The notes beneath the pieces are model-generated. The model made no database searches, was not told where the DNA came from, and saw only the letters and a list, made by a program, of their open reading frames with translations. From the NCBI GenBank assembly GCA_947627285.1, contig CANQVL010000016.1, forward strand, positions 1 to 49,936: 49,936 bases of DNA. The letters are read 5' to 3'. Origin of the DNA: an uncultured Oscillospiraceae bacterium (GTDB lineage Bacteria > Bacillota > Clostridia > Oscillospirales > Oscillospiraceae). Each line of letters opens with the position of its first letter. The first letter of the stretch is position 1. Both the position numbers and the translations under genes were made by a program. Shown here piece by piece: positions 97-49,828 of the stretch.

Positions 97-270
97 TCAA
101 AAAAGGGCAAAGCCCTTTTTTGAAGGGAAAACGTGCGAAAAAAGATTCGGAAATGTCTGCGGACATTTCCGAATCTTTTTTCTGCTGTCACGGTTCGCGC
201 ACTCGCTGTGCTCGCACACTCACCGTGACAAGAGGTGATTTTTCCGACGTACATGCCGCCGGAAAAATAT
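97..270 (+). repeat. Multi-hairpin intergenic repeat, copy 1
   Basis: The order of parts is: hairpin H1 (99-108 with 112-121, an A-run/GGGC stem ending in a T-run, terminator-like); a linker box ending ACGTGCG (131-137); hairpin H2 (138-157 with 162-181, 20 perfect pairs, loop TGCG at 158-161); the box TTCTGCTGTCAC; hairpin H3 closed by GTCACGG/CCGTGAC; a conserved AGGTGATTTTTCCGACGTAC box; and hairpin H4 (TTTTTCCG 239-246 with CGGAAAAA 260-267). H3 here uses GTCACGG where other copies use GTCGCGC, and the partner strand changes with it. Confidence 0.85.
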
Positions 271-284
271 TGAATTTTAAGTTT

Positions 285-332
285 TTCGCAAAAATACCCG
301 CCCTCCCATATCATATGAGAGGGCGGGTTATT
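285..332 (-). terminator. Rho-independent terminator of the rhamnose/fucO operon
   Basis: ACCCGCCCTC (296-305) pairs perfectly with GAGGGCGGGT (319-328). Read leftward, the stem is followed by a U-rich stretch (rc of gcaaaaatacc), so it would end the rhaB-rhaA-rhaD-fucO transcript 14-50 bp after the fucO stop. Read rightward it also has a T-rich tail, so it may work both ways. Confidence 0.7.
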
Positions 333-345
333 ATTTGTTATTGCT

Positions 346-1494
346 TTACATGAGTCCTTTATAAAGCTCTACGATCTCCTCAACGCTTGTCTCCCTGGGG
401 TTGCCGGGGCGGCAGGCGTCGGCGTAGGCGGACTCGGCGAGGAACTGGACGTCCTCAGCCTTCAAAATCCCCTTGAGGTCGGCGGGAATTCCCACGTCGG
501 CGGAGAGCTTCTTCACGGCGGCGATGGTGGCGTCAGCCGCCTCCTCGTCGGTCATGGAGTCGATCCCCGGCACGCACATCGCCCTGCCGATGGCGCGGTA
601 GCGCTTACCGGCGACAGGCGCGTTGTACTCAAGCCCCGTGGGGAGAATGATGGCGCAGGCAACGCCGTGGGGCGTGTCATAGAGGGCGGAGAGCCCGTGC
701 GCCATGGAGTGGACTATGCCAAGGCCCACGTTGGAGAAGCCCATTCCGGCAATATACTGGCCCAGCGCCATGCCCTCGCGCCCGTCCGGGTCGTTCTGGA
801 CGGCGGCGCGGAGGTTCGCGGAGATGAGCCTGATGGCCTCAAGATGGAACATATCGGAGATGGCGCAGTGACCGGCGGTGATGTAGCCCTCGATTGCGTG
901 CGTCAGAGCGTCCATACCGGTGGCGGCGGTGAGGCCCTTGGGCATGGTGGACATCATGTCCGGGTCCACGACGGCGATCTCGGGGATGTCGTTCACGTCC
1001 ACGCAGACGAACTTGCGCTTCTTCTCCACGTCGGTGATGACGTAGTTTATGGTGACCTCGGCGGCTGTGCCGGCGGTGGTGGGCACCGCGATGGTGAAGG
1101 TGGCGTGCTTCTTTGTGGGAGCCACGCCCTCAAGGGAGCGGACGTCGGCAAACTCCGGGTTCTCGGCGATTATGCCGATGGCCTTGGCGGTGTCCATGGC
1201 GGAGCCGCCGCCCACCGCCACGATGCAGTCCGCGCCGGACTCCTCAAAGGACTTTACGCCGTGCTGGACGTTCTCGATGGTGGGGTTGGCCTTGATGTCG
1301 GAATAGACCTCATAGGGGAAGCCCGCCGCGTCAAGAAGCGCGGTGACCTTTCCGGTGACGCCGAACTTGAGAAGGTCGGGGTCGGTGGCGACAAACGCCT
1401 TTTTGTACCCGCGGGCGGTGAGCTCGGGGACAATGTTCTCAATCGCGCCGTGCCCGTGGTAGGAGATGGTGTTGAGGACGATACGTGAAGCCAT
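346..1494 (-). CDS. fucO: Lactaldehyde reductase (iron-dependent propanediol oxidoreductase)
   Basis: This 382-residue group III iron-dependent alcohol dehydrogenase reduces L-lactaldehyde, the product of rhamnulose-1-phosphate cleavage, to (S)-1,2-propanediol with NADH, and so recycles NAD in anaerobic growth. It is close to E. coli FucO over its whole length and shares blocks such as AGTAAEVTINYVITD and GMGFSNVGLG. The nucleotide-binding GGGS is at 95-98, and the iron ligands expected for FucO sit at Asp195, His199, His262 and His276. The start follows AAGGAG about 10 bases upstream. It is the last gene of the rhaBAD operon, 47 bp after rhaD, with a terminator behind it. Family and role are clear; the propanediol product is known for FucO and inferred here. 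Confidence 0.95.
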   Translation of the reverse strand: MASRIVLNTISYHGHGAIENIVPELTARGYKKAFVATDPDLLKFGVTGKVTALLDAAGFPYEVYSDIKANPTIENVQHGVKSFEESGADCIVAVGGGSAMDTAKAIGIIAENPEFADVRSLEGVAPTKKHATFTIAVPTTAGTAAEVTINYVITDVEKKRKFVCVDVNDIPEIAVVDPDMMSTMPKGLTAATGMDALTHAIEGYITAGHCAISDMFHLEAIRLISANLRAAVQNDPDGREGMALGQYIAGMGFSNVGLGIVHSMAHGLSALYDTPHGVACAIILPTGLEYNAPVAGKRYRAIGRAMCVPGIDSMTDEEAADATIAAVKKLSADVGIPADLKGILKAEDVQFLAESAYADACRPGNPRETSVEEIVELYKGLM

Positions 1495-1541
1495 GATGAA
1501 TACACTCCTTATATTATAATAAATTTAAAATGACCGCAAAT

Positions 1542-32454: not shown

Positions 32455-32455
32455 G

Positions 32456-37508: not shown

Positions 37509-37538
37509 ATTTTAATTCCAAATATAAGGCTTTGTAAA
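37509..37538 (-). promoter_or_regulatory. Candidate promoter of the GH2-GH2-GH35 operon
   Basis: On the minus strand TTTACA (37533-37538) is followed after 18 bases by TAAAAT (37509-37514), about 38 bases before the GH2 start codon. No other good promoter is seen between the divergent genes on this strand. Confidence 0.5.
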
Positions 37539-37611
37539 GAGAAAAGGGAAGGTTTTTTCAATCGCGGAATGTTCAAAAAACCTTATTTTTTGCTTAACAG
37601 AAAATTCACCC

Positions 37612-37640
37612 TTGCAAAGAGGGGAAATTTATAATAGTAT
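37612..37640 (+). promoter_or_regulatory. Candidate promoter of the two-component system
   Basis: TTGCAA (37612-37617) and, after 17 bases, TAGTAT (37635-37640), in an AT-rich stretch that also holds TATAAT at 37630-37635 and TATAAA just after. The start codon is 43 bases beyond the -10 box. Confidence 0.45.
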
Positions 37641-37683
37641 AAAGTTTAGTGGGATAATTATTTGCAAAAGGGAGGAACCGGAT

Positions 37684-38382
37684 ATGGCGGAAAAGATACT
37701 TATAGTGGAGGACGAGCAGAACATAGCCGAGCTTTTGCGGCTCTACCTGGAGCGGGAGGGGCTGGAGACGGTCATCGCCAACGACGGTGAGAGGGGCGTG
37801 GCGGAGTTTGAGCGCGTGCGCCCGGACCTGGTGCTGCTGGACATCATGCTCCCCGGACTTGACGGGTGGGGCGTTTTGAGGAAGATACGCGCCCAGGCGG
37901 ACACGCCGGTGATCATGCTCACAGCCAAGGGCGAGACCTTCGACAAGGTGACGGGGCTGGAGATGGGCGCCGACGACTACATAACAAAGCCCTTCGACAT
38001 GAAGGAGGTGGTGGCGCGCATCCGCGCGGTGCTGCGGCGTTACGGCGGCGGCGAGAGCGGGGACAGCAAGCGCCGCCTCGTCTTCGACAAGCTCATTATC
38101 GACATGGAGTCCTTCGTCCTCACCGTGGACGGAAAGCCCGTGGACATACCGCCCAAGGAGATGGAGCTTTTGTACCATCTGGCGCTGTCGCCCAATCGGG
38201 TGTACACAAGGAACCAGCTTTTGGACGAGGTGTGGGGCTTTGACTACTTCGGCGACTCCCGCACCGTGGACGTACACATAAAGCGGCTGAGGGAAAAGCT
38301 GGAGGGCGTCTCGGATAAGTGGAGCCTGAAGACGGTCTGGGGCGTGGGCTACAAATTTGAGCTCAAAAATGACGCGGAATAA
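37684..38382 (+). CDS. OmpR/PhoB-family response regulator
   Basis: At 232 residues. The receiver domain (3-117) has the acidic pocket Glu9/Asp10, the phospho-acceptor Asp53 (VLLDIMLPG), Thr in IMLTAKG and Lys in TKPFDMKE. The winged-helix DNA-binding domain (about 130-228) ends RTVDVHIKRLREKLEG and LKTVWGVGYKFE. GGGAGG precedes the ATG. It is co-transcribed with the histidine kinase 12 bp downstream. The PhoB-type output domain differs from the AraC-type output of YesN, so this pair is not the direct counterpart of the B. subtilis YesMN pair. What it senses is not visible. Confidence 0.93.
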   Translation: MAEKILIVEDEQNIAELLRLYLEREGLETVIANDGERGVAEFERVRPDLVLLDIMLPGLDGWGVLRKIRAQADTPVIMLTAKGETFDKVTGLEMGADDYITKPFDMKEVVARIRAVLRRYGGGESGDSKRRLVFDKLIIDMESFVLTVDGKPVDIPPKEMELLYHLALSPNRVYTRNQLLDEVWGFDYFGDSRTVDVHIKRLREKLEGVSDKWSLKTVWGVGYKFELKNDAE

Positions 38383-38394
38383 GAGGCGGTAACC

Positions 38395-39861
38395 GTGCGC
38401 TACCTGCGCAGTGTATATGCCAAAAACTTCATAACGATAGTGCTTGTCTTCTGCCTGAGCCTTCTCATACTCGGCGCCGCCTTCGCGGGGATGAGCTACA
38501 GCTTCATACTCCGTCAGCGCGCGGACGCCATGACAGACTCCGCCGGCACCACCGGCGAGATGCTCAGGTCCTACGCCCAGCAGTGGGGCACGGGGTACGA
38601 GGGCATCAATATGCGCGCCACCATATCCTGGCTTGCGAGCATAGCGGGGTACCACATAATCATCACCGACGAGCAGGGGAGCATCGTCAACTGCTCCGAC
38701 AGGAATTTAAACTGCGGCCACGCGGGGCTTACGGTGCCCGCCTCCGCCATCTCCGCCATAAACGCCGGCGGAAAGTTCCAGGGGATAACGAATCTCGGCG
38801 GGGTGTTCTCCGTCCCCAGGTTCGCCGTCGGGGTGCCCCTCCCCGCGGGGCCCTCCAGGGGGTACATCTTCGTCTCCGACGAGGCGGGGCGTATGTCCGG
38901 CATATGGCGGGGCTTTGCGCGGATATTCATCTTTGCCGCCATTGTGGTGGTGCCGCTGTCCTTCATAATGGCGTATGCCGTCATCCGCAAGCAATCAAAG
39001 CCCATCAAGGAGATGTCCGACGCCGCCCGCAGCTACAGCCGGGGCGATTTCTCCCCCAGGGTCCACACCGAGGGGCGGCAGGACGAGGTGGGCGAGCTTG
39101 CCGAGGCGTTCAACGCCATGGCGGATTCCCTGGAGCGGAGCGAGCAAAGCCGCCGTGACCTCATCGCCAACGTGTCACACGAGCTGAAAACGCCCATGAC
39201 CACCATATCAGGCTTTGCCGACGGGATACTTGACGGGACCATACCCAAGGAGAAGGAGGGCGAGTACCTGACGGTGATCTCCTCCGAGACAAAGCGCCTC
39301 TCGCGCCTGGTGCGGGGTATGCTGGATATGTCACAGCTCCAGTCCGTGACGCCAATGGAGCTCTCGCGCCGCTCCTTCGACCTTTTGGAGGTGGTTTGCC
39401 AGTCACTCCTGAGCCTGGAGTCCAAGATAACCTCCCGTGGCCTTGACGTGGAGACGGTACTGCCTGAGGAGCCAGTCTACGCCGTGGGCGACGGGGACGC
39501 CATAACCCAGGTGGTCCACAACCTCCTTGACAACGCCGCCAAATTCGCCGAGCCCGGCACCGCCATAATTTTGAAGCTCTGGCGGGAGGAGGGCAGGTGC
39601 TACGTCTCCGTGGCAAACAGGGGCGAGACAATACCCAAGGAGGAGCTCCCCCTCATCTTTGAGCGATTCCACAAGACCGACAAATCCAGAAGCCGCGACC
39701 GCGACGGCGTGGGGCTTGGGCTCTACATCGTCAAGACCATTCTGGACAGCCACGGCGGGAGCATTTACGTCACCAGCCGCGACGGGCTCACCACCTTCAC
39801 CTTCAGCCTGAAGCTGGCAAAGCAGCGCCCACAGCAGGAGAAAAACGGCTCCAAACCGTGA
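38395..39861 (+). CDS. Membrane sensor histidine kinase
   Basis: At 488 residues, starting with GTG. It has a transmembrane helix at about 13-35, an extracellular sensor of about 150 residues with two Cys (NCSDRNLNC), and a second helix at about 180-200. A HAMP domain follows (about 201-253, QSKPIKEMSDAARSYSRGDF), then HisKA with phospho-acceptor His262 (NVSHELKTPM) and HATPase with the N box HNLLDNAAKFA and GVGLGLYIVKTI. The Cys pair inside the sensor could form a disulfide. It forms a pair with the regulator before it. A C/U-rich hairpin region with a possible promoter follows its stop codon. Confidence 0.93.
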   Translation: MRYLRSVYAKNFITIVLVFCLSLLILGAAFAGMSYSFILRQRADAMTDSAGTTGEMLRSYAQQWGTGYEGINMRATISWLASIAGYHIIITDEQGSIVNCSDRNLNCGHAGLTVPASAISAINAGGKFQGITNLGGVFSVPRFAVGVPLPAGPSRGYIFVSDEAGRMSGIWRGFARIFIFAAIVVVPLSFIMAYAVIRKQSKPIKEMSDAARSYSRGDFSPRVHTEGRQDEVGELAEAFNAMADSLERSEQSRRDLIANVSHELKTPMTTISGFADGILDGTIPKEKEGEYLTVISSETKRLSRLVRGMLDMSQLQSVTPMELSRRSFDLLEVVCQSLLSLESKITSRGLDVETVLPEEPVYAVGDGDAITQVVHNLLDNAAKFAEPGTAIILKLWREEGRCYVSVANRGETIPKEELPLIFERFHKTDKSRSRDRDGVGLGLYIVKTILDSHGGSIYVTSRDGLTTFTFSLKLAKQRPQQEKNGSKP

Positions 39862-39933
39862 TTTTGGCGTAATTTTCCGCCGTTGTTTACAAAATGTATA
39901 AAATTTATTCACACTCTCTTGAAGTACGCACTG

Positions 39934-40105
39934 TATAATACGATTGAAGCGGTTCCTCCATACAAGCGGTGATATTCCCCCAAATATCTCCGTGAAGCCG
40001 CTTCAAGCGGATCTCTCCCAATCCGCGTGCTTGGTCATTTCCAAGCGTTTCTCCCTCATTTTTTTGCGAAATGCCCCCGTCCCTACCCCGGACGGGGGCA
40101 TTTCA
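39934..40105 (+). ncRNA. Candidate small RNA with C/U-rich hairpin loops
   Basis: A perfect TATAAT (39934-39939) lies 73 bases after the kinase stop. From about 39946 come TTGAAGCGG (39944-39952) with CCGCTTCAA (39998-40006), an inner stem GATATT/AATATC with loop CCCCCA (39977-39982), GCGGAT/ATCCGC with loop CTCTCCCA (40013-40020), GCTTGG/CCAAGC (40029-40046), single-stranded CTCCC at 40051, and a GC-rich 12-bp stem ATGCCCCCGTCC (40071-40082) with 40090-40101. CCTCC at 39955 is also unpaired. These are anti-Shine-Dalgarno sequences. Termination may occur here or at the A/T-flanked hairpin at 40113. No clear -35 box is present, as at regulator-dependent promoters. A known RNA class is not recognised. 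Confidence 0.5.
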
Positions 40106-40112
40106 GGCTTTC

Positions 40113-40285
40113 AAAAAAAGGGCATTTGCCCTTTTTTTGAAGGGGGACGTGCGAAAAGGAATTCGGAAATGTCTGCGGACATTTCCGAATTTCTTTTCTG
40201 CTGTCGCGCTGCGCGCGTGACCCGAAGGGTCACACACTTGCGCGACATAAGGTGATTTTTCCGACGTACATGCCGTCGGAAAAAT
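40113..40285 (+). repeat. Multi-hairpin intergenic repeat, copy 3
   Basis: H1: AAAAAAAGGGC (40113-40123) with 40128-40138, loop ATTT, terminator-like. Box GGGGGACGTGCG (40142-40153). H2: 40154-40173 with 40178-40197, 20 pairs with one G-T, loop TGCG. H3: GTCGCGC (40203-40209) with GCGCGAC, holding the inner stem GTGACCC/GGTCAC with loop GAAG. Then AAGGTGATTTTTCCG and H4 (stem TTTTTCCGAC/GTCGGAAAAA). The inner H3 stem differs from copy 4 (GCCGCC/GCGGC) at the same place. Confidence 0.88.
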
Positions 40286-40317
40286 GTTTTATTGGGGGGT
40301 GGAAATTGGAGCGGTAC

Positions 40318-40367
40318 TTGAATGTTTTAAAGGGTTCTGCTATAATATCCGCGAGGCGGATATTATA
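40318..40367 (+). promoter_or_regulatory. Promoter with a perfect palindrome over the -10 box
   Basis: TTGAAT (40318-40323), a 17-base spacer and TATAAT (40341-40346), preceded by TGC as in an extended -10 box. The -10 opens a perfect inverted repeat: TATAATATCCGC (40341-40352), GAG, GCGGATATTATA (40356-40367). A repressor bound there would cover the -10 box and start site. It drives the DUF4430/ECF pair and possibly the GH2 gene behind it. Confidence 0.7.
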
Positions 40368-40372
40368 TTAAG

Positions 40373-40411
40373 CCGTTTTTCTTCCCGGCTTTGCCGGGGG
40401 TCGAAAAACGG
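40373..40411 (+). other. Two-part hairpin in the DUF4430 leader
   Basis: CCGTTTTTC (40373-40381) pairs with GAAAAACGG (40403-40411), and inside it CCCGGC pairs with GCCGGG. It lies 35 bp before the DUF4430 start codon. No long T-run follows, so a leader structure is more likely than a terminator. Confidence 0.45.
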
Positions 40412-40446
40412 GGGTAATTATACATATAAAGAGCGGTGAAAAAAAG

Positions 40447-40839
40447 ATGAAAAGGAACACTAAAATAATTATTGCTTGTCTGGCGCTTTTGGCGGCGGCG
40501 GGGGTTATGATGGGGGTGTGGCTGGCGCTGAGGCCGGAGGTCTCGGAGGGGGTTAAGGAGATAACGGTGGAGGCGGCGCACTCTGACGGGAGCGTGAAGT
40601 CATTCACGTACAAAACAGCGGAGGAATACCTGGGGGCTGTGCTTCTCTCGGATGGGCTTGCGGAGGGCGAGCAGGGGGAGTACGGGCTTTATATCACCTC
40701 AGTCGACGGGGAGAGGGCGGTTTACGAGGAGGACGGCGCGTACTGGGCGCTGTACCGCAACGGCGAGTACGCCGTCTCCGGCGCGGACACCACGCCCATA
40801 GCCGACGGCGACGTGTTCCGGCTTGAGTACACCAGATGA
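40447..40839 (+). CDS. DUF4430-type membrane-anchored extracytoplasmic protein
   Basis: At 130 residues, it has a short Lys/Arg start and a hydrophobic helix (7-27, IIIACLALLAAAGVMMGVWLAL) with no lipobox Cys, so it is an uncleaved anchor or a weak signal peptide. The outer domain of about 100 residues has YGLYITSVDGE, YWALYRNGEYAVSGADTTPIADGDVFRLEY, the pattern of DUF4430, a fold shared with the C-terminal domain of transcobalamin-type proteins. DUF4430 genes commonly pair with ECF transporter S components, as here (ATGA overlap with the next gene). The ligand is unknown; a cofactor or vitamin is possible. Confidence 0.82.
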   Translation: MKRNTKIIIACLALLAAAGVMMGVWLALRPEVSEGVKEITVEAAHSDGSVKSFTYKTAEEYLGAVLLSDGLAEGEQGEYGLYITSVDGERAVYEEDGAYWALYRNGEYAVSGADTTPIADGDVFRLEYTR

Positions 40840-41348
40840 GCGGCAGGAGGATAAGCGTTCGGGAGCTGGTGCTTTTTGCCCTTCTGGGAGGGCTGTGCTT
40901 CATAAGCGCGGCGGTGATGTCGGGGCTTCCCAACGTGGAGCCGGTGTCGCTTTTTGTGATGCTCTTTGCCGTGACCTTCGGGTGGAAATCGCTTCTGCCG
41001 ATATACACCTATGTGCTTTTGGTGCTGGCGGTCTACCCGCCGCAGCTCTGGTCCATAAACTACCTGTACATCTGGCTCATACTGGCGGCGGTGTCCATAG
41101 CCATGCGGGGCTGTCGGACGAATCTGATCTGGGCGCTGGTGTCCGGCGCCTTCGGGCTGTTCTTTGGGCTTTTGAGCGCGCCGGTGTATTTGGTCACCGG
41201 CGGCTGGGCGTTCGCCGCCTCCTGGTGGGTCAGCGGGATACCCTTTGACCTTGTCCACTGCGCCGGAAATTTCGCCCTGGCGCTGGCGCTTTTCGGGCCG
41301 CTCCGGAGGCTTATGGAGCGGATGTACGCGAAGCTAATGACAAAATAA
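40836..41348 (+). CDS. ECF transporter S component (substrate-binding membrane subunit)
   Basis: At 170 residues with about five to six helices, this S-type subunit captures a small substrate at the membrane and hands it to a shared energising module. RRISVRELVLFALLGGLCFISAAVMS is the typical first helix with an Ala-rich face that docks to EcfT, and the ISAAVMSGLPNVEPVSLFVMLFAVTFG segment fits the family. No EcfA or EcfT gene is in the window. The start overlaps the DUF4430 stop as ATGA. The next gene, a GH2, starts 12 bp on, so cargo linked to glycan use cannot be excluded, though vitamins are the usual cargo. Confidence 0.8.
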   Translation: MSGRRISVRELVLFALLGGLCFISAAVMSGLPNVEPVSLFVMLFAVTFGWKSLLPIYTYVLLVLAVYPPQLWSINYLYIWLILAAVSIAMRGCRTNLIWALVSGAFGLFFGLLSAPVYLVTGGWAFAASWWVSGIPFDLVHCAGNFALALALFGPLRRLMERMYAKLMTK

Positions 41349-41359
41349 GGAGGAACCGC

Positions 41360-43660
41360 ATGAAAAGGCTGAGCTTCAACGACGGCTGGACGCTTAAAAG
41401 GGAGGACGGCACGGTTCTGCCGGTGCTTTTGCCCCACGACGCCATGCAGACCGAGCCCCGGCAGGCGGGGAACCCATCGGGTCCGGGGTGCGGATACTAC
41501 AAGGGCGGGGTGTACGAGTATGAAAAGCACTTCACCCCTCCCGCGGATTGGGCCGGAAAGAGCGTCATTTTTGAGTTTGAGGGCGCGTATCCCACGGCGG
41601 AGGTATATTTGAACGGCCTTCGCGTGGGCGGGTGCGCTTACGGGTATGAGCAGTTCCTTGTTCCGGGGGACGGGCTGAAAATCGGGGAGGAAAACGTCCT
41701 GCGGGTGGTCGTGGACAACACACAGCTCCCCAACTCCCGCTGGTACTCCGGCGCAGGGCTCCACAGACCGGTATTCGTGTACCTGGGCGAGGCGGAGCAC
41801 ATTGAGCCCTACGGGTTAAGGATAAGTACGGTCTCGCTTGACCCCGCCGTGGTAAAGGTCACCGTGAGGCACACGGGTCTTTCCCCCGCCAGGGTGGAGA
41901 TACTGGACGGGGACACGGTGGTCGCCTCCGGCACGGGCGACGAGCTGGAGCTTGAGGTACCCGCCGCCAGGCTTTGGAGCGATTTAACGCCGGAGCTCTA
42001 CACCTGCCGCGCGGCGCTCCCCGGCGGCGACGAGGCGCGGGAGAGCTTCGGCGTCAGGACGCTTGAATGGGGCCCCACGGGATTTTTCGTAAACGGCAGG
42101 GCGGTGAAGCTCCGGGGCGGGTGCGTCCACCACGACAACGGCATTTTGGGCGCGCGGAGCTTCCCGGAGTCCGAGCTGCGGCGGGTGAGGATACTCAAAT
42201 CCGCCGGCTTCAACGCCATACGCTCCTCCCACAACCCGGCGTCCAGGTCCCTGCTTGACGCCTGCGACCAGGTGGGAATGTACGTCATGGACGAGGGCTG
42301 GGACATGTGGTTCAACCACAAAAATCCCGGCGACTACGCCTCCCGCTTCGAGGAAAACTGGAAAACGGACCTGGAGCGCATGGTTGAGAAGGACTTCAAC
42401 CACCCCTGTGTGGTGATGTACTCCATCGGCAACGAGGTATCGGAGCCCGCGAGCCGGCGGGGGCTTGAGACGGCAAGGGCGCTTGTTGACACGCTCCACG
42501 CCCTTGACCCCTCCCGTCCCGTCACCTCAGGCGCGAACCTGGTGATACTCACCGAGGCGTTTTACTCCCACCGATTCGGCGGGATAAGCGCGGACAAGGC
42601 CGTGGACAGCACGGAGTTCAATAAACTGCTGTCGGAGCAGTTTTTGGGCATGTGCAGCTACTCCGCAAGGCCTGAGGCGGACGCCGCCACTGAAGCCTAT
42701 TTCGCCCTCCTGGACATCGCCGGCTACAACTACGCCTCCGACCGCTACCCCACGGACTGCCAAAAATACCCGGACCGGGTGGTGGTGGGCAGTGAGACCT
42801 TCCCCTCCATGCTGGCGGAGAACTGGGAGGCGGTGGAGAAATACGACTACCTCATCGGTGATTTCATGTGGACCGCCTGGGATTATCTGGGTGAGACGGG
42901 CATCGGCGCCTGGAGCTGTGAGCCCGACGCCAAGGTCTTCGCCAAGCCCTACCCCTGGCTGCTGGCGGACTCCGGCGCCTTTGACATACTCGGACACGAC
43001 AACGCGGAGGCGGGGCTGGCGATGACGGTTTGGGGCGCCAGGGACACGCCGTACATCGGCATAGCCCCTCCCAACCACCCCGGCGAGCCCCAGTACAGGG
43101 GCGCCTGGAGGGGCTCTGACGCCCTTCCGAGCTGGTCCTGGAGGGGGTGCGACGGGAATCCGGCGGGGATCGAGGTGTACTCCAAGGCGCCCGCGGTCGC
43201 GCTGTACATAAACGGCAGGCACGTGGGCACGGCCCCGACAAAGGGCTGCCGCGCCGATTTCAGCGTCCGGTATGAGCCCGGAGAGATACGCGCCGTGGCA
43301 CTGGATCTCAACGGAAACGAGCTCTCTGAATCGGCGCTGCGCTCCGCCCGCGGCAGGCTGGGGGTAAGGGTCGTCCCCGAGGGCGTCCCGGAGGCGGGAA
43401 GGCCGCTGTACGTGGACTTCTCGGTGGTGGGCGAAAACGGCGAGGTGGAGTCCAACGCCGACACGGTGCTGTCCGTCGAGGTCACGGGGGCGGAGCTCCT
43501 TGCCTTCGGAAGCGCCCAGCCCCGGACAGAGAGCCGCTTCGAGACAGGCCGGTACGAAACATACCGAGGCCAAGCCCAAGCCGTCCTCCTCCCCAACGGC
43601 GGACCAATAACAGTAAAGGCACACTCCGAGAATCTTGGAACCTTTGAAGTAAAGCTTTAA
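41360..43660 (+). CDS. Glycoside hydrolase family 2, beta-galactosidase type
   Basis: At 766 residues. The jelly-roll sugar-binding domain (LSFNDGWTLKREDGT, LLPHDAMQTEPRQAG) is followed by an Ig-like domain and a barrel with GGCVHHDNGILGARSFPESELRRV and NAIRSSHNPASRSLLDACDQVGMYVMDEGWDMW. The acid/base is Glu359 (MYSIGNEVSEP) and the nucleophile is Glu479 (VVGSETFPSM). A C-terminal Ig-like domain follows (about 590-766), with LSVEVTGAELLAFGSAQPRTE. No signal peptide. The large insert after residue 395 (FGGISADKAVDSTEF) suggests a subfamily different from the other two GH2 proteins. AAGGAGG precedes ATG. It converges on ferritin, with a repeat between. Confidence 0.92.
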   Translation: MKRLSFNDGWTLKREDGTVLPVLLPHDAMQTEPRQAGNPSGPGCGYYKGGVYEYEKHFTPPADWAGKSVIFEFEGAYPTAEVYLNGLRVGGCAYGYEQFLVPGDGLKIGEENVLRVVVDNTQLPNSRWYSGAGLHRPVFVYLGEAEHIEPYGLRISTVSLDPAVVKVTVRHTGLSPARVEILDGDTVVASGTGDELELEVPAARLWSDLTPELYTCRAALPGGDEARESFGVRTLEWGPTGFFVNGRAVKLRGGCVHHDNGILGARSFPESELRRVRILKSAGFNAIRSSHNPASRSLLDACDQVGMYVMDEGWDMWFNHKNPGDYASRFEENWKTDLERMVEKDFNHPCVVMYSIGNEVSEPASRRGLETARALVDTLHALDPSRPVTSGANLVILTEAFYSHRFGGISADKAVDSTEFNKLLSEQFLGMCSYSARPEADAATEAYFALLDIAGYNYASDRYPTDCQKYPDRVVVGSETFPSMLAENWEAVEKYDYLIGDFMWTAWDYLGETGIGAWSCEPDAKVFAKPYPWLLADSGAFDILGHDNAEAGLAMTVWGARDTPYIGIAPPNHPGEPQYRGAWRGSDALPSWSWRGCDGNPAGIEVYSKAPAVALYINGRHVGTAPTKGCRADFSVRYEPGEIRAVALDLNGNELSESALRSARGRLGVRVVPEGVPEAGRPLYVDFSVVGENGEVESNADTVLSVEVTGAELLAFGSAQPRTESRFETGRYETYRGQAQAVLLPNGGPITVKAHSENLGTFEVKL

Positions 43661-43671
43661 ATCTTCATCAA

Positions 43672-43857
43672 ATATTTTTCCGACGGCATGTACGTCGGAA
43701 AAATCACCTTATGTCGCGCAAGTGTGCCGCCTACGGCGGCGCGCGCAGCGCGACAGCAGGAAAGCCCTCGTGAAAGGTCCGCAGACCTTTCACGAGGGCT
43801 TTCCGCACGTATCCCCTTAAAAATTTAAAAAGGGCTACGCCCTTTTTAAATTTTTAA
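43672..43857 (-). repeat. Multi-hairpin intergenic repeat, copy 4
   Basis: Read leftward. H1: 43839-43857 with 43817-43835, 19 perfect pairs, loop of 3; it includes the ferritin stop codon and its last four codons. Box GGGGATACGTGCGG. H2: 43784-43804 with 43759-43779, 21 perfect pairs, loop TGCG on the minus strand. H3 closes with GTCGCGC/GCGCGAC and has the inner stem GCCGCC/GGCGGC. The AAGGTGATTTTTCCG box and H4 follow. The H2 stem sequence (AGCCCTCGTGAAAGGTC) is unrelated to that of copies 1-3. Confidence 0.88.
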
Positions 43858-44355
43858 AGATGGCTCCGAATACACGCGTGACGCGAGCTCGGAGTTGAGC
43901 ATATAGAGGCAGCGGGTGTCGTCGCCGAAGAGCTCCATCTTGGTTATCATATCGGAGGAGTTCTTCTCCTCCTCGCCCTGCTCCTTAACGAACCAGTCAA
44001 GGAACTGGACGGTGCGGTAGTCGTGGGCGTCCTGGGCGGCGCGGTAGATGTTGTTGATGAGGCCGGTGACGTACTGCTCATGGGCGTGGGCGGCCTTCAG
44101 GGGGTCAATGAGGGCGGAGTAGGTCTTGTCGGGCTTTGCCACGGCCTCCAGAGTCACCTTCTCGGAGTTGTTGTGGAGGTACTTGTAGATAAGCAGCGCG
44201 TGGTCCTGCTCCTCGCGGGCCTGTATCTCGTACCAGTTGGCGAAGCCGTCAAGCCCCTTCTCGTCGTAAAAATTTGCCATATCCAGGTAGAGATAGGCGG
44301 AATAGAGCTCCTTGTTGATCTGGTCATTCAAGAGCGCGGAAACATTTTTGTCCAT
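43846..44355 (-). CDS. ftnA: Ferritin (bacterial non-haem ferritin)
   Basis: This 169-residue four-helix protein stores iron in a 24-subunit shell and oxidises Fe(II). Ferroxidase-site residues are seen as Glu16 (INKELYSAYLYLDMA), Glu49/His52 (AREEQDHALLIYKYL) and Glu93 region (HAHEQYVTGLI), with the fourth-helix QFLDWFVKEQGEEEKNSSDMI block. The start follows GGAGGA and the gene has a near-consensus promoter. Its last codons (SLKI stop) are encoded by a strand of a repeat-element hairpin, so the C-terminus may have been altered by the element. Confidence 0.95.
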   Translation of the reverse strand: MDKNVSALLNDQINKELYSAYLYLDMANFYDEKGLDGFANWYEIQAREEQDHALLIYKYLHNNSEKVTLEAVAKPDKTYSALIDPLKAAHAHEQYVTGLINNIYRAAQDAHDYRTVQFLDWFVKEQGEEEKNSSDMITKMELFGDDTRCLYMLNSELASRVYSEPSLKI

Positions 44356-44420
44356 ATCGGATCCTCCTTACAGAAGTAAAAATCGGTCTGATACCTTTCG
44401 TATCAGCCGTAACCGTAATT

Positions 44421-44448
44421 ATTATAGCACCGGCTTTGGCGGTGTCAA
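44421..44448 (-). promoter_or_regulatory. Ferritin promoter
   Basis: On the minus strand a perfect TTGACA (44443-44448), a 16-base spacer and a perfect TATAAT (44421-44426). The leader holds a hairpin CTGATAC/GTATCAG with loop GAAAG (about 44386-44404), followed by GGAGGA before the start codon. Confidence 0.8.
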
Positions 44449-44527
44449 GCGGCAGAACGGGATTTTTTTGCCCGGAACGGCGGTGGTTCGATTTAATTTT
44501 TTATACTGTCAACTTGCGCGGTGTGTA

Positions 44528-44556
44528 TTGACCTTGGGAAGGATTTGGTATAAAAT
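44528..44556 (+). promoter_or_regulatory. Promoter of the potassium uptake operon
   Basis: TTGACC (44528-44533), 17 bases and TAAAAT (44551-44556); TATAAA at 15 bases is an alternative. The start codon is 44 bases downstream, with GGAGGTGAG before it. Confidence 0.6.
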
Positions 44557-44600
44557 ATAAAATACTTTTTTAAATCCTTCATTAAATCGGAGGTGAGGGT

Positions 44601-45941
44601 ATGCCCGCAAAGGTAAGGCGGAGAATGACGCCGGTGAAGCTCGTGGTCCTGAGCTTCCTTGCGGTCATACTTTTGGGCTCCGCCGTCCTTACTCTCCCCT
44701 GGTGCTCCAACGAGGGCGTGTGGACGCCGTTTGTGGACTGCCTCTTTACCTCCACCTCGGCGGCGTGCGTCACGGGGCTTGCCGTTGTTGACACGGCGGG
44801 GCACTGGAGCGTGACGGGTCAGGCGGTGATACTCGTCCTCATTCAGGTGGGCGGGCTGGGCGCCATGACCATCATCACGGGCTTCTTCTCCGTTGTTAGA
44901 AAGCGGGCGAGCCTTTCCGATTCGCGGCTCATAATGCAGGCGGCGGGCAGCGACAGCTACGCCGGAGTGGTGAAGATGGTGCGGCGGCTCTTTTTGGGGA
45001 CGGTCATATTTGAGGTCGCGGGGGCTTTACTGCTGGCGATAAGGTTCGTCCCACTCTTTGGCTGGGGGCGGGGCATATGGTTCTCCGTCTTCCACTCCGT
45101 TTCGGCCTTCTGCAACGCCGGCTTTGACCTAATGGGGGACTACAACGGCGGGGCGAGCCTCTCCGCCTTTTCCGGGGACGCGCTGGTGATTCTCACCGTC
45201 TCCGCCCTCATAATTCTGGGCGGGCTGGGGTTCATCGTCTGGGACGACCTTCTCAACTCCAAATTCCGCCTGAAAAAGCTGAAATTCCACTCAAAGATAG
45301 TGCTCATAATGACTGGCCTGCTCATAGCCGTGCCCTTCGCGCTGTTCCTCATATTTGAAAACACCGCCGCCTTCGCCGGCGCGGGGGCGGGGAAAAAGGT
45401 TCTGCTGTCGCTTTTCCAGGCGGTGACGCCCAGGACGGCGGGCTTCGCCACGGTGCCGATGTCGGAGCTCTCCGACGCCGGGGCGCTTTTGACGATGGTG
45501 CTCATGCTGGTGGGCGGGTCCCCCGGCTCCACAGCCGGCGGACTTAAAACCACCACCGTGGCTGTGGTGCTCATCTGCACGGCGGCGTCGGTGAAGAAGT
45601 CGCCCCCAACGGCGCTGAGGCGGCGGATCGACGACGACACCGTCAGGCAGGCGACAGCCATCGTGGTCATATACCTGACGGCGGTGATCGTGGCGACCTG
45701 CGCCCTTTGCGCGGTGGAGTCCGCGCCGCTGAGGGACGCGCTTTTTGAGGTCATCTCCGCCATAGCCACCGTGGGGCTCTCCACGGGTATAACGCCCACC
45801 CTTGGCGTGGCGGCAAAGCTTATGTTGACGGCGCTGATGTTCGCCGGAAGGATCGGCGGGCTCACAATGGCGATAGCCCTCACGGGCGAACAGGGCGCGT
45901 CGCCGGTGAAATTCCCCTCGGGCAAGCTGCTCGTGGGCTGA
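44601..45941 (+). CDS. ktrB: Potassium uptake membrane subunit (TrkH/KtrB family)
   Basis: The 446-residue multi-pass protein has four repeated M1-P-M2 units that form the potassium pore. The selectivity loops are seen as STSAACVTGLAVVDT, SVSAFCNAGFDLMGDY, AVTPRTAGFATVPM and ISAIATVGLSTGITPTL, each with the required Gly. GGSPGSTAGGLKTTT is the diagnostic block before the last unit. The length matches KtrB more than TrkH (about 480). It lies 15 bp before the regulatory TrkA/KtrA gene, and together they form a potassium-uptake system driven by sodium or protons. Confidence 0.95.
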   Translation: MPAKVRRRMTPVKLVVLSFLAVILLGSAVLTLPWCSNEGVWTPFVDCLFTSTSAACVTGLAVVDTAGHWSVTGQAVILVLIQVGGLGAMTIITGFFSVVRKRASLSDSRLIMQAAGSDSYAGVVKMVRRLFLGTVIFEVAGALLLAIRFVPLFGWGRGIWFSVFHSVSAFCNAGFDLMGDYNGGASLSAFSGDALVILTVSALIILGGLGFIVWDDLLNSKFRLKKLKFHSKIVLIMTGLLIAVPFALFLIFENTAAFAGAGAGKKVLLSLFQAVTPRTAGFATVPMSELSDAGALLTMVLMLVGGSPGSTAGGLKTTTVAVVLICTAASVKKSPPTALRRRIDDDTVRQATAIVVIYLTAVIVATCALCAVESAPLRDALFEVISAIATVGLSTGITPTLGVAAKLMLTALMFAGRIGGLTMAIALTGEQGASPVKFPSGKLLVG

Positions 45942-45956
45942 TTTGGGAGGATACCT

Positions 45957-46607
45957 ATGAAATCCGTACTGGTCATTGGCCTTGGCCGCTTCGGGCGGCA
46001 CCTGGCGACAAAGATGCAGGAGCTGGGCAACGATGTGATGATAGTGGACAAGGACGCGGAGCTGGTGGAGCTGATGGCGAACCGCTTCACCGAGTGTACC
46101 ATTGGGGACTGCACCAAGGAGCCGGTGGTGGCGTCGCTGGGAGTGGAGAACTTCGACCTGTGCTTTGTCACAACGGGCGACGACTTCCAGTCCTCCCTGG
46201 TGACCACGGCGCTTTTGGTGCGCCACGGGGCGAAAAAGGTCATATCAAAGACGACTCAGGACATCCAGGAGATGCTTTTGAAGCAGATAGGCGCATACGA
46301 GGTGGTGTACCCCGAGAGGGAGATCGCCGAGCGCGTGGCTGTGCGCTACAACTCCGACAACATTTTTGACTTCATACCCATTACCGAGGACGTGGCGATA
46401 TATGAGATAAAGGCGCCCAAGTCCTGGATAGGCGACACCATTGTGGGGGTGGACGTGCGGAAAAAGCACAGTGTGAACGTCATCGCCATAAAGCAGGGCG
46501 AGAAGCTCATCGCCGCGCCGGGTCCGGGGTATGTTTTCAAGGAGGGCGACCACATAATGGTCATGGGCGCCTCCTCAGACGTGTTCAGGCTGGCGGGCAA
46601 GGCGTGA
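45957..46607 (+). CDS. ktrA: Potassium uptake regulatory subunit (TrkA/KtrA, RCK)
   Basis: This 216-residue cytoplasmic subunit has an N-terminal nucleotide-binding RCK domain (GLGRFGRHLATKMQELGNDV, with the dinucleotide motif GxGxxG and later VTTGDDFQSSLV). The C-terminal RCK_C domain (about 135-216) has WIGDTIVGVDVRKKHSVNVIAI and GDHIMVMGASSDVFRL. It forms an octameric ring on the KtrB dimer and gates it with ATP/ADP or c-di-AMP, as known for the family. GGGAGG lies before ATG. Its stop overlaps the next start as TGATG. Confidence 0.95.
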   Translation: MKSVLVIGLGRFGRHLATKMQELGNDVMIVDKDAELVELMANRFTECTIGDCTKEPVVASLGVENFDLCFVTTGDDFQSSLVTTALLVRHGAKKVISKTTQDIQEMLLKQIGAYEVVYPEREIAERVAVRYNSDNIFDFIPITEDVAIYEIKAPKSWIGDTIVGVDVRKKHSVNVIAIKQGEKLIAAPGPGYVFKEGDHIMVMGASSDVFRLAGKA

Positions 46608-46957
46608 TGGCTGAGCCGCGGAGGGTAAAAAGAGGAAAGAATATCCCCGCCGTCGCCGGGTTCGGCGTGCGGCAGGGGGACGACTCGATGGAGCCCTGGA
46701 TAAGGGCGGGTCAGGTCTTCTACGTAAGCCGGGGCCCCATGCCGGAGCCGGGTGACGTGGGGCTTTTCCTTGCGCGCGGGGAGCTGGTGTGCCGGCAGTA
46801 TTTGGAGGACAGCGAGGGGAACATATACCTCTTTGTCCTGAACCGTTCACGCCGCGGGCTGGACATCACCGTCCCGCCCACGGACCCTGATGGCGTGAGC
46901 TTCTACGGCAGGGTGCTGCTGAAATCCGCGCCTCCGCTGCCGGGGATAGAAGAATAA
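46607..46957 (+). CDS. S24/LexA-type peptidase fold protein with the catalytic Lys replaced by Arg
   Basis: The 116-residue protein has no DNA-binding domain. GVRQGDDSMEPWIRAGQVFYVSRG holds the usual Ser (Ser27) of the S24 Ser-Lys dyad. The second active residue, Lys in the family pattern V-C-K-Q-Y, is Arg63 here (LVCRQYLEDSEGN). Lys-to-Arg is expected to block catalysis, so a binding or signalling role is likelier. The start ATG overlaps the KtrA stop (TGATG), so expression is tied to potassium uptake. The function is unknown, and the family call rests on the spacing and these two motifs. Confidence 0.75.
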   Translation: MAEPRRVKRGKNIPAVAGFGVRQGDDSMEPWIRAGQVFYVSRGPMPEPGDVGLFLARGELVCRQYLEDSEGNIYLFVLNRSRRGLDITVPPTDPDGVSFYGRVLLKSAPPLPGIEE

Positions 46958-46975
46958 AAAAAGGCGGAGCCTTGT

Positions 46976-47776
46976 CTACGCATGGGCGCGAATCAGGCTG
47001 ATATATTCCGTAATGGCGGAATCTAACAGCGCCATGTCAAGGCGTTGGTCGAGCTGCAGGGGCTTGTTTTCCTTTACAGCGTCCATAAATTGCCCTTGCA
47101 CAATTTTCAGCTTTTGGCTGATTTGAGTTTCTCCGATCAAATCCAGCATTGTAATTCCGTCAAGCAGAATCGCGCGGAACAGAGTATTCATAGACAGGCG
47201 AATATCCGTTGAGGATCTCTCCTGTGAACAGAAGCCGGCTATTTCTTTTGCCAACGACTGAAGGACAGCTATAGAGCGCTTTGCCGTACCTTCGGTTTTA
47301 ACAGCTTCACAAGCGGTCTTATTCAAAACGCCCACCGTTACCTTTTCATCGACCCGCCGCAAAAGCTCCTGTTCTGAAAACACCAGCGTATCAGGCTCAT
47401 CGGACCGTTCCCATTTGTTGTTGAGCATACAGTATTTGCCGTCTTCCATCCCTGTGTAAATAACGGCGTGCTTATTCCGCTCGCTTACATAAATGCCCAG
47501 CATGGCATACTGTAAATCGCGAAGATAACCGCAGAGCCGTTCCTTATTCACCTCTTTTTCCGTCATGGTATAGCCGATAGGCTTTAAGTAGAGATTGAAC
47601 CATCTTGCGCCTTGAAGCATTGGCCCCGAAAGATAACACCCCTCCTCGCAGTCAAACAAAAACGGCAGTCCCATTTCAAGCGCGATCGTTCTGTCCTCGG
47701 TATCTATCCCATAAAACGACAAAAGATTTGCTATCCCTGCATAGGAACACGATGAATTGAAAGTCATATACTTCAT
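46976..47776 (-). CDS. Papain-like (C39 / BtrH-N type) cysteine-protease-fold protein, unknown role
   Basis: At 266 residues. The first 130 resemble the papain-like fold of C39 peptidases or of the BtrH N-terminal domain: Cys10 in NSSCSYAGIANLLSFYG at the start of the first helix, His103 in NKHAVIYTG and Asn119/Asn120 in CMLNNKW, spaced as a Cys-His-Asn triad. Residues 140-266 are helical. There is no export signal and no nearby transporter or precursor peptide. Base composition is clearly more AT-rich than all neighbours and codon choice differs, so it is probably acquired. It converges on the S24-like gene with 18 bp between. Protease, acyltransferase and toxin-like roles are all possible. 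Confidence 0.65.
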   Translation of the reverse strand: MKYMTFNSSCSYAGIANLLSFYGIDTEDRTIALEMGLPFLFDCEEGCYLSGPMLQGARWFNLYLKPIGYTMTEKEVNKERLCGYLRDLQYAMLGIYVSERNKHAVIYTGMEDGKYCMLNNKWERSDEPDTLVFSEQELLRRVDEKVTVGVLNKTACEAVKTEGTAKRSIAVLQSLAKEIAGFCSQERSSTDIRLSMNTLFRAILLDGITMLDLIGETQISQKLKIVQGQFMDAVKENKPLQLDQRLDMALLDSAITEYISLIRAHA

Positions 47777-47813
47777 AGATACATTTCCTTCTCAAATGTT
47801 TTTTAATTGGAGC

Positions 47814-47880
47814 GTTCAGTAAAAATCCGTGAATTCCGGGGAATTCACGGATTTTTTCCTGCCGCCGCCGGAAAAATGTT
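47814..47880 (+). repeat. Multi-hairpin intergenic repeat, copy 5 (shortened)
   Basis: H2 is complete: AAAAATCCGTGAATTC (47822-47837) pairs with 47842-47857, but the loop is CGGG instead of TGCG. It is joined through TCCTGC directly to GCCGCCGGAAAAATG, the right half of H4, so the H3 region and the AAGGTGAT box are missing. The stem core CCGTGAATTC is the same as in copy 2. Confidence 0.75.
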
Positions 47881-47904
47881 TAATTTGAGGGTCGGGGCGG
47901 GGAG

Positions 47905-49380
47905 TTAAACTATTTTGGAAAACAATGACTTCATAGCTGGGTAAATCTCTTTGAATTGTTGGTATCGCTCGTCGTAGAGCCTTGTCAGCTCCGGTTCCGG
48001 CTCCGTGGTGGAGGCGACGGTCACCAGCGCGTCGCACGCGGCCTGGACGGTGGGATAGCGCCCGTCCGCCACCATCGCCAGGATCGCGCCGCCGTAACCG
48101 GGGCCCTGCTCCGTTGCCACCATGTCCAGGGAAATTCCCAGAACGTTGGCGAGGATCTTGCGCCACAGGGGAGATTTCGCCCCGCCGCCGCAGATGTTGG
48201 AGCGGGGGATTTCGACGCCAAGAGATTTTGCCACCTCGAAGCTGTCCCGGATGGCGAACGCCACGCCCTCCAGCACCGCTTGGGTCATGTCCGCGTGGGT
48301 GGTGTCCATGGTGAGACCCGTAAATGTCCCACGGGCGTTTGTGTCGTTGATGGGACTGCGCTCGCCCATGAGATATGGCAGGAAGTAGACGTGGTTGCGC
48401 CCCAGCCTGTCGGGGGCTATCTTCGCCTGCTCCGAGGCGTAGTCCTTGTCGCCTGAGACCTCATCCATCCACCACTTGTTGCAGCTGGCGGCAGAGAGCA
48501 TACAGCCCATGAGATGATACCCCCCGTCGGCGTGGGCGAAGGAGTGCAGGGCGTTGTGGGGGTCCACGCCGAATTTATCGGAGGAGATGAACACCGTCCC
48601 GGAGGTGCCGAGGGATATGTTGCAGCCCCCCGCGCCCACGGTGCCGGTGCCCACCGCTGCCGCGGCGTTGTCCCCCGCCCCGGCGCAGACCTTTACAGTC
48701 TCGGGCAGCCCAAATTCCGCCGCCACGCGGGGCTTTAGCGTTCCAACGCACTCCCAGCTCTCATGGAGCTTTGGCAGCTGCGCCTCGGTGACGCCGCATA
48801 TCTCCAGCATCTCCTTGGACCAGCGCTTGTTCCGGACGTCCAGAAGGAGCATGCCGGAGGCGTCGGAGTAGTCCGTGGCGTGTGCGCCGGTCATTTTGTA
48901 GACCAGGTAGTCCTTGGGGAGCATGATCTTGGAAATGCGGGCGAAGCTTTCCGGCTCGTTTGCCCTCATCCAGAGGATCTTCGGCGCGGTGAACCCGGCG
49001 AAGGTGATGTTGGCTGTGTACTGGCTCAGTTTGTCCCGGCCCACCGTCTCGTTGAGAAAGTCCGTCTCCTTGGCGGTGCGCCCGTCGTTCCAGAGTATGG
49101 CGGGGCGGATAACGTTGTCCCGGTCGTCCAGCGCCACAAGCCCGTGCATTTGCCCGCCCAGGCCGATGGCGCGCACGCTTTTTGGGTCCACGCCCGCTAT
49201 GAGCTCCGGCACGCCCGCCAGAACAGCGTTCCACCAATCCTCCGGCTCCTGCTCGCTCCAGCCGGGGTGGGGGAAGCTGAGTGGATACTCCTTTGTCACC
49301 TCTCCGGTCACCCTTCCTGCCTCGTCCACCAGCAAAAGCTTCACCGCAGAGGTCCCAAGGTCGATACCAATGTAACACAT
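47905..49380 (-). CDS. xylB: Xylulokinase
   Basis: At 491 residues, this FGGY-family kinase phosphorylates D-xylulose to D-xylulose 5-phosphate for the pentose phosphate pathway. The phosphate-1 loop is GIDLGTSAVKLLLVD. GLGGQMHGLVALD is the xylulokinase-specific MHG block near residue 75; DYSDASGMLLLDV, AGAGDNAAAAVGTG and ICGGGAKSPLWRKILANVL complete the fold. ATG 49380 is preferred because AGGAG lies 9 bases upstream; an in-frame start 30 bases earlier would cover it. It stands alone, with no xylose isomerase next to it. It could also process pentuloses from arabinan breakdown after epimerisation, but xylulose is the default. Confidence 0.93.
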   Translation of the reverse strand: MCYIGIDLGTSAVKLLLVDEAGRVTGEVTKEYPLSFPHPGWSEQEPEDWWNAVLAGVPELIAGVDPKSVRAIGLGGQMHGLVALDDRDNVIRPAILWNDGRTAKETDFLNETVGRDKLSQYTANITFAGFTAPKILWMRANEPESFARISKIMLPKDYLVYKMTGAHATDYSDASGMLLLDVRNKRWSKEMLEICGVTEAQLPKLHESWECVGTLKPRVAAEFGLPETVKVCAGAGDNAAAAVGTGTVGAGGCNISLGTSGTVFISSDKFGVDPHNALHSFAHADGGYHLMGCMLSAASCNKWWMDEVSGDKDYASEQAKIAPDRLGRNHVYFLPYLMGERSPINDTNARGTFTGLTMDTTHADMTQAVLEGVAFAIRDSFEVAKSLGVEIPRSNICGGGAKSPLWRKILANVLGISLDMVATEQGPGYGGAILAMVADGRYPTVQAACDALVTVASTTEPEPELTRLYDERYQQFKEIYPAMKSLFSKIV

Positions 49381-49549
49381 CTCTGTCTGCTCCTTTCGTT
49401 TATCCCGCATTGTGATTCCACAGCTTCGTCAAATCCATTATAACCGCGTCCCCGCCTTATGGCAAGCCCTTTTTGCCCCGTCTGAGTCATCTCGCCCCAA
49501 CAGGCTCCGCGCGCAAAATGGACAGACCGTCAAAAACCCATAATTCAAT

Positions 49550-49828
49550 ATTTTTCCGGCGGCATGTACGTCGGAAAAATCACCTTTTGTCGCGCAAGTG
49601 TGCCGCCTTCGGCGGTGCGCGAAATAGGGGTCCCCAACGGACGGAAGTCCGTTGGGGAGAGGACGAGCCGAGCCAGCGCCTGAGCCCTGCGCTTGCGCGG
49701 GGCGAGGTTAAGCGGCTCGAGCGAGGACGACGACAGCAGGGTAATTTTCTCTGAATTTCGCAAAATTCAGAGAAAACTACCCGCACGTTCCCCCTTGTCG
49801 GCAAAGGCCAGCGGTCTTTGCCGACAAT
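49550..49828 (-). repeat. Multi-hairpin intergenic repeat, copy 6 (long form)
   Basis: Read leftward. H1: 49813-49827 with 49795-49809. Box GGGGGAACGTGCGG. H2: stem TTTTCTCTGAATTT with its complement (about 49742-49778), loop TGCG on the minus strand. The long H3 region has the stem CGAGCC/GGCTCG around a segment starting GCTTAACCTCGCCCCGC, the stem CCCCAACGGAC/GTCCGTTGGGG, and an extra GCCGCC/GGCGGC stem. It closes with the GCGCGACAAAAGG box and H4. It pairs with copy 2 as the long class but has different bases in nearly every stem. Confidence 0.85.

Follow-up and report, generated by a model that had tools for sequence, protein, structure and literature searches.

Intergenic multi-hairpin repeats of an Oscillospiraceae genome as probable IS1182-type MITEs

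The window analysed here is a stretch of 49,936 nucleotides (contig CANQVL010000016.1, assembly GCA_947627285.1) from an uncultured Oscillospiraceae bacterium of the gut, and its intergenic gaps contain repeated copies of an element in which four hairpins, H1 to H4, are joined by conserved linkers. Judging from sequence comparisons, the element is most probably (we would put it at roughly 87%) a family of miniature inverted-repeat transposable elements (MITEs) of the IS1182 type, which would be mobilised in trans by IS1182-family transposases that target the hairpins of intrinsic terminators. The observations behind this reading are that the ends match, that terminator repeats surround some copies (a minority), that the copies sit at 3' ends of genes, that orthologous loci differ in presence and orientation, and that the stems are paired almost perfectly without an excess of G.T mismatches. 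The first-pass annotation had described a dispersed element with conserved linkers and covarying, near-perfect stems, and this description stood; its further statements, that the element is unlike an insertion sequence (IS) remnant and that the pairing marks selection on structure, were not supported.

When the genome and its relatives were searched, as the first-pass annotation had proposed, the core pattern of H4 (three or fewer mismatches) gave 117 matches in the genome of origin (G000; a draft of 2,806,996 bp in 95 contigs), and the reversed control pattern gave none. Of these 117, the analysis used 92 distinct copies, taken from 80 stretches of G000 and the window and called own copies below. 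An H4 match was present in 22 of 60 genomes (G000 counted), namely 21 of the same genus and G042 from another family; G005, the metagenome-assembled genome (MAG) of a sister species, has 102. An exact scan of GTDB genomes found the element in at least 106 stretches. Among the matches listed, most are Oscillospiraceae MAGs labelled Lapin (French for rabbit), and records of Lawsonibacter, Dysosmobacter and Candidatus Oscillibacter excrementigallinarum are included; an exact scan of viral contigs gave no match to the element. One match (L164) is on a 4.7-kb contig labelled Acetatifactor, with the same sample label, Lapin-001, as G005, and is possibly a binning error. No report of this element was found in the open-licence PMC papers on IS1182, MITEs, repetitive extragenic palindromic (REP) sequences, terminators and Oscillospiraceae, a scope within which novelty is unproven.

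Ends, partner elements and target sites

Aligned copies have the left end CAGTCTGTCGGCAAAGGCC or ..TGTCAAAAAAGGGC and the right end ..TTTTTTGACAGTCTG or ..GGTTTGTCAACAGTCTG. A right end matching TTTGACAGTCTG or TTGTCAACAGTCTG with at most two mismatches follows H4 within 70 nt in 17 of 91 own copies, compared with 1 of 91 in a control interval. The left-end patterns were found at 63 places in the genome (14 for control patterns); the scan itself did not reveal an autonomous unit. The genome also carries an IS1182-family element (L232), whose transposase scores 440 bits against NF033551 (cut-off 270), whose ends are CAGTCTGTCGACAAACCCG and CAGACTGTAGACAAACACC, and which has the palindrome AACCACTCGTTAAACGAGTGGTT once on each side. 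The ends of this element and of L235 in genome G032 are of the form CAGwCTGTmGACAAACmC (type A). In other congeners, IS1182 elements have CAGTCTGTCAAAAAAC-like ends (type B), seen at both sides of L239, L240 (CAGTTTGTC twice), L242 (one end CAGATTGTC) and L243 (one end CAGCCTGTC), and at one end each in L236, L241 and L244. The end classes of the hairpin element match both types, type B corresponding to the second class of element ends. All six IS copies with both ends seen (L232, L235, L239, L240, L242 and L243) are flanked by terminator-like palindromes. A match to a transposon end was one of the refuting results named in the first-pass annotation, and it was obtained here with the IS1182-family terminal inverted repeats of this genome and genus; together with the minority of copies that lie between host-terminator repeats, it leaves the earlier view that the element does not behave as an IS remnant unsupported. 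The L232-type transposase was found in 11 of 60 genomes, G000 counted; besides G000, which carries one intact and one interrupted copy, G032 and G004 have it nearly at full length with at least 87% identity. A third IS1182-type element of G000 (L231, C18, about 35.4-37.2 kb) differs in its ends (GGGGCTGTGAAAA), and a long hairpin lies immediately internal to the left one.

The similarity of left to right flank exceeded the 99th percentile of 7310 mismatched flank pairs in 12 of 86 copies, where 0.86 would be expected. Nine of these flank repeats, of 18-35 bp, are clear terminator-type hairpins; for example, AAAAGCGGCTTGCGTTTGCAAGCCGCTTT stands at both sides of the copy in L027. The repeat of L030 is weaker (26 bp, overlapping the element's end), and those of L059 and L025 are 11 bp long. 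In genome G002, the element at locus L254, a unit of about 207 bp end to end without a transposase gene inside (other copies are similar in size), has on either side a copy of a hairpin that L253 and L256 carry singly behind the same gene. The two terminator copies (bases 36-61 and 270-295 of that stretch) differ at the centre, GGAACC versus GGTTCC, apparently by inversion.

The position relative to genes was scored for the 79 own copies with genes at both sides, the genes being called by a simple open reading frame (ORF) score. A gene 3' end is on the H1 side in 64 of them: in 39 the neighbouring genes converge on the copy, and in 25 the other side has a gene 5' end. The reverse arrangement was seen in eight copies, and the remaining seven are between two 5' ends. 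In 41 of the 64 3'-end copies, the start of H1 falls between -15 and +7 nt relative to the stop codon. The region behind the gene upstream of L020 was readable at 28 loci, that of G000 counted, and 24 of these lacked an H4 match on either strand within 400 bp (a further locus, L275, was unreadable and was dropped). The element is present there in one orientation in G000 and G005 and in the opposite orientation in G002 and G010, and the last codon and the terminator of the L020 gene appear to have been overwritten.

The site occupied by the MITE at L077 in G000 corresponds to L117 on contig 7 of G005. There, an IS481-family element with the ends TGTAGG..CCTACA (about 930-2000) lies inside a terminator, flanked on each side by a 25-bp repeat. 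An IS1202-family partner had been considered because the long-duplication group of that family makes repeats of 16-28 bp, according to the part of PMC10132070 cited here; it was rejected, as the L117 element was assigned by its score to IS481 and has ends that do not match those of the hairpin element.

Orthologous loci, stem covariation and competing explanations

Orthology was judged by flanks alone, comparing the 92 own copies with 62 loci of G005. For 30 own copies both flanks were found in one G005 locus, with a flank identity of 91.4-100% (mean 96.2%; 94-98% in 42 of 60 flanks). Twenty-one of these loci have a copy in the same orientation and four an inverted copy, and five sites are without an H4 match, one of them short (L039/L206, 95 bp) and four with other DNA. 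Copies in the same orientation often carry another inner cassette; in L010/L095, L020/L083 and L081/L222, H1 is identical, H2 is of a different class and H3 differs. In L024/L207 the loop of H1 is inverted (TCC versus GGA) on an identical stem, and in L198 an inverted element follows the H1 and linker belonging to a different copy. In the part of the window from 46.9 to 49.9 kb there was no aligned counterpart in the G005 stretch compared. A simple inversion switch between flanking terminators would fit L069/L098, but L033/L198, L057/L201 and L062/L193 look like separate insertions in opposite orientation, and this explanation was rejected.

In orthologous H2 stems of the same class (same inner bases, 8 pairs), 144 positions were unchanged, 9 were changed on both arms and 3 on one; in same-class H1 stems (11 pairs) the numbers were 152, 8 and 1. 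Together this makes 17 paired versus 4 one-sided changes. Between different classes, there were 92 double and 3 single changes in H2 (10 pairs) and 35 double and 3 single changes in H1 (7 pairs). The same-class paired changes fit template switching or exchange between copies, and many changes could be either.

Covariation of the stems was also evident within the own genome. H2 was parsed in 86 of the 92 own copies, six copies without H2 being left out; only 25 of 1687 pairs were not of the Watson-Crick type, and the loop was TGCG in 84 copies, TGTG in one and CGCA, the inverse, in one. In a second parse, of 88 own copies, the 80 distinct H2 stems were 98.4% Watson-Crick to a depth of 16, compared with 50.8% on average and at most 54.2% over 500 shuffles in which the 3' letters were redealt and relatedness was not kept (here and in the mismatch counts below, each distinct stem was counted a single time). 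At 10 of the 16 depths, three or four Watson-Crick pair types occur. The first-pass observation that the stems stay paired and differ in sequence is thus strengthened. However, its conclusion, that pairing kept through base changes marks selection on structure, does not follow, in view of the missing G.T excess, the preponderance of paired over one-sided changes and the orthologous loci at which the inner cassettes differ or the whole copy is inverted. RNA stems usually tolerate G.U pairs on the transcribed strand. Distinct H2 stems had 30 G.T and 26 A.C mismatches (p 0.69) and distinct H1 stems 13 and 25 (p 0.07), or 43 and 51 combined, in a sample of 236 copies of which 200 had H2 (36 were dropped) and 187 had H1, with a hairpin finder that penalised both kinds equally. 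Since there is no excess of G.T over A.C, RNA-level selection is not the simplest cause of the pairing, and the evidence points to copying or exchange at the DNA level at least as much as to RNA selection.

The strongest competing explanation is a structured RNA family, of regulators or 3'-end RNAs, whose stems would be kept paired by selection on RNA folding; a MITE could also carry such an RNA. The strong covariation fits this, as do the conserved linkers, the position at gene 3' ends and the H2 loop, which is TGCG in 155 of 168 distinct stems and fits the UNCG loop type. Besides the mismatch counts, however, the build of the copies argues against it. The outer arms of H3 (five bases) match in 153 of 191 copies, differ once in 22 and differ at two or more bases in 16, mostly where unlike types are joined (nine of the 200 copies were without readable H3 arms and were dropped). 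The types of the modules are only weakly associated, with Cramer's V of 0.25-0.46 (H2 with H3, p 0.001; H2 with linker, p 0.0008; H2 with H1, p 0.11; H1 with H3, p 0.09). The dispersal is explained by transposon ends and terminator repeats, and the comparison with Rfam 15 that had been suggested gave no match in the window at the gathering threshold. We therefore discarded an RNA regulator family as the leading explanation, because of the mosaics, the transposon ends and the lack of G.T excess, and regard selection on RNA folding as unlikely. As to individual H3 hairpins, that of L041 is an exact palindrome from end to end, and in L064 and L071 the outer 11-13 bases, including the linker that is normally CTGCTGT, are exactly complementary.

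Another possibility is that the repeats are host-derived intrinsic terminators, spread by selection for termination without transposition of their own. The short distance of H1 from the stop codons is compatible with this, and the native terminators of the genus likewise start close behind stop codons. However, the ends in common with IS1182, the terminator repeats at both sides, the five orthologous sites without an H4 match and the four inverted orthologous copies make it very improbable. Even less credit can be given to REP elements or bacterial interspersed mosaic elements (BIMEs) moved by a REP-associated tyrosine (Y1) transposase. The element is indeed an intergenic palindrome in many copies and the genome has two Y1_Tnp genes, but both genes lie in tandem IS200-like units, the element is absent from the surrounding 3.4 kb, and the ends match DDE-type IS1182 elements and the flank repeats are long. 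The two tandem IS200-like units with the Y1 genes are closely similar (L189, about 1.3-2.8 kb, G000 C18). A degenerate group IIC intron can practically be dismissed: such introns sit behind terminators and the GTGCG linker resembles a group II 5' end, but there is no match to the reverse transcriptase domain RVT_1 (PF00078) in the genome, no Rfam match in the window, a GTTCA linker in 12 of 88 own copies (the remaining 76 being assigned to the GTGCG type by default), and flank repeats that are not expected of introns.

We return to the IS1182-type MITE family. An IS1182-family transposase would mobilise the element in trans and place a young insertion between two copies of the host terminator hairpin. 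Over time the native terminator and the outer ends of the element would be lost, and H1, abutting or overlapping the stop codon, would take over and probably become the terminator of the gene. A terminator scan of window positions 30000-49936 gave no excess (27 sites versus 21.5, sd 5.0, in shuffles), so this role of H1 is inferred rather than shown. The arms of H1 and H2 may stay paired despite sequence change because the two change together, through fold-back template switching inside a hairpin, through swapping of hairpin cassettes among about 100 copies, or both ways. We propose only tentatively that such a DNA process, and not RNA selection, makes the stems diversify as paired units faster than the linkers. 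Nested insertion into or beside other copies may have produced the arrangement in L198 and the presence of a second repeat unit, N, described below, in H3 regions, and the linkers and the TGCG loop of H2 are perhaps conserved for protein binding.

Several points weigh against this reading. By the right-end pattern, 74 of 91 own copies have no right end, and 74 of 86 copies have no significant flank repeat; the mobile state is therefore seen only in a minority. The two terminator copies of L254 are not a plain direct repeat, as they differ by their inverted centre, and IS1272, the best-studied relative compared, makes no target duplication according to the part of PMC4923244 cited here. G005, with its 102 copies, gave no match to PF13751 or to an L232-like transposase, and the presence of the IS does not track the number of MITEs, G004 having the IS and no H4 match; a partner transposase in every copy-rich host is not a strict requirement, as the partner may be lost. 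L117, one of the sites without H4, retains an H1-type hairpin and holds the IS481-family element as well. Both genomes are drafts (G005 a MAG, G000 in 95 contigs), and some cassette swaps and inversions may therefore be mis-assembly of a repeat of about 200 bp. Moreover, the class changes are explained just as well by exchange with other copies as by template switching. Finally, copying of the H1 arms from host coding sequence was rejected at L020, where LGK* is the ending at 17 of 28 readable loci and the H1-overlapped LGA* is confined to G000 and G005; since the other congeners are without the H1-overlapped end, that end is derived and the coding-copy claim is unsupported there.

Layout of the element and its copies in the window

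The unit has the layout H1-(A)AGGGGAACGTGCG-H2-CTGCTGT-H3-GGTGAT-H4. The fixed order of hairpins and conserved linkers noted in the first-pass annotation holds, and its six copies and one relic were recovered at approximately the same positions, five of the copies being full, the fifth in order a deletion derivative and the relic a left end (Table 1). The element measures about 210 bp, or about 100 bp more where the H3 region is split by the separate repeat unit of about 110 nt (N), as in copies 2 and 6 (about 49624-49731 in the latter). N is itself a second dispersed repeat, CTCGTCGTCGCTGAAGCC...CTCTCCCCACGCAATCATGATTGCGTGGGGACCCC, with conserved linkers and a terminal hairpin of varying stem; 24 of 88 own copies contain it in their H3 region (e.g. 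L018 and L030), and an N-like unit located away from the element was seen in L108.

Table 1. Copies of the element and associated features in the window
Feature	Positions	Strand	Parts
Copy 1	97-269	+	H1 97-123; H2 137-182 (loop TGCG); H3 187-229; H4 237-269
Left-end relic	28653-28695	+	H1-type hairpin, loop TGCG, then linker AGAAGGGGAAACG; without H2-H4
Copy 2	30102-30383	+	H1 30102-30140; H2 30153-30194; H3 region 30195-30350; H4 30351-30383
Nested second repeat unit N in H3 region of copy 2	30214-30326 (ends approximate)	+	
Hairpin immediately 5' of copy 3	40068-40104	+	possibly own terminator of upstream gene
Copy 3	40110-40286	+	H1 40110-40141; H2 40153-40198; H3 region 40199-40253; H4 40254-40286
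Copy 4	43673-43857	-	H1 43817-43857; H2 43759-43804; H3 region 43706-43758; H4 43673-43705
Copy 5, internal-deletion derivative	47812-47880	+	GTTCAG linker; H2 loop CGGG; CCTGC; right arm of H4 only
Copy 6	49549-49827	-	H1 49795-49827; H2 49739-49782; H3 region 49582-49738 with nested N unit; H4 49549-49581

Copy 6, whose left end is TGTCGGCAAAGACC, is the only window copy that passes the right-end pattern (TTTGACGGTCTG, about 49520); in copy 1 the right terminal repeat is unrecognisable. H1 of copy 2 starts at the TAA stop of ORF 29058-30104. Copy 3 has its G005 ortholog in L220, and copy 4 in L219, with a different H2 class. A promoter-like sequence (TTGAAT-17-TATAAT with TG, 40318-40346) lies shortly 3' of copy 3 and 5' of ORF 40447-40839. 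Elsewhere in the window, an 18-bp tandem repeat (GGCAGCAGCGACAACCAG) occupies 14703-14914 within the overlapping ORFs 14633-16354 (+) and 14576-16375 (-).

Significance and comparison with known systems

If the reading is right, a portable element takes over gene terminators genome-wide. It would also be a warning that a DNA transposon family can show covariation, usually accepted as proof of RNA structure, without an excess of G.U. If the more tentative DNA process for the stems holds too, the family would offer a natural laboratory for strong "RNA-like" covariation that needs no RNA function, and the hairpins of a hairpin-targeting transposon would double as host terminators and as new landing sites. 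With flanks about 96% identical and about 100 copies in each of the two sister genomes, it is possible to measure how fast stems change in pairs, loops invert and cassettes are exchanged.

REP sequences and BIMEs are intergenic palindromic repeats near gene 3' ends, a trait in common with the present element, which differs from them in its ends, size, flank repeats and type of transposase. Bacterial MITEs are short, high-copy, non-autonomous elements with terminal inverted repeats that are mobilised in trans. The present element shares these general traits, presumably including mobilisation in trans, with bacterial MITEs, of which MITEAba12 (part of PMC6382973) is an example. Unlike MITEs in general, the present element has several internal hairpins, its stems are variable yet paired, and its copies are mosaic. 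Homogenisation of hairpin arms and inversion of the spacer by template switching have been described (in parts of PMC8604942 and PMC8794818). The multibase compensatory changes that bypass G.U in hairpins maintained in this way are also seen here, although the part of PMC8794818 cited deals with RNA genes, whereas the present stems are parts of a mobile element.

The closest comparison is with IS1272/TnSha1 of the IS1182 family, for which we rely on sections of PMC4923244. IS1272 is autonomous, whereas the present element is without a gene. Insertion of IS1272 is accompanied by blunt, partial stem deletion and by no duplication of the target; by contrast, some copies of the present element lie between two terminator copies, and the direct repeats given by ISFinder for IS1182 range from 2 to 60 bp (part of PMC7335449). 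IS1272/TnSha1 inserts into hairpins in both orientations, and five of seven sequenced sites were confirmed terminators. The present element is like it in the presumed IS1182-family transposase, in the use of hairpin targets, many of them terminators, without sequence specificity, in insertion in both orientations, and in repeated insertion at one site.

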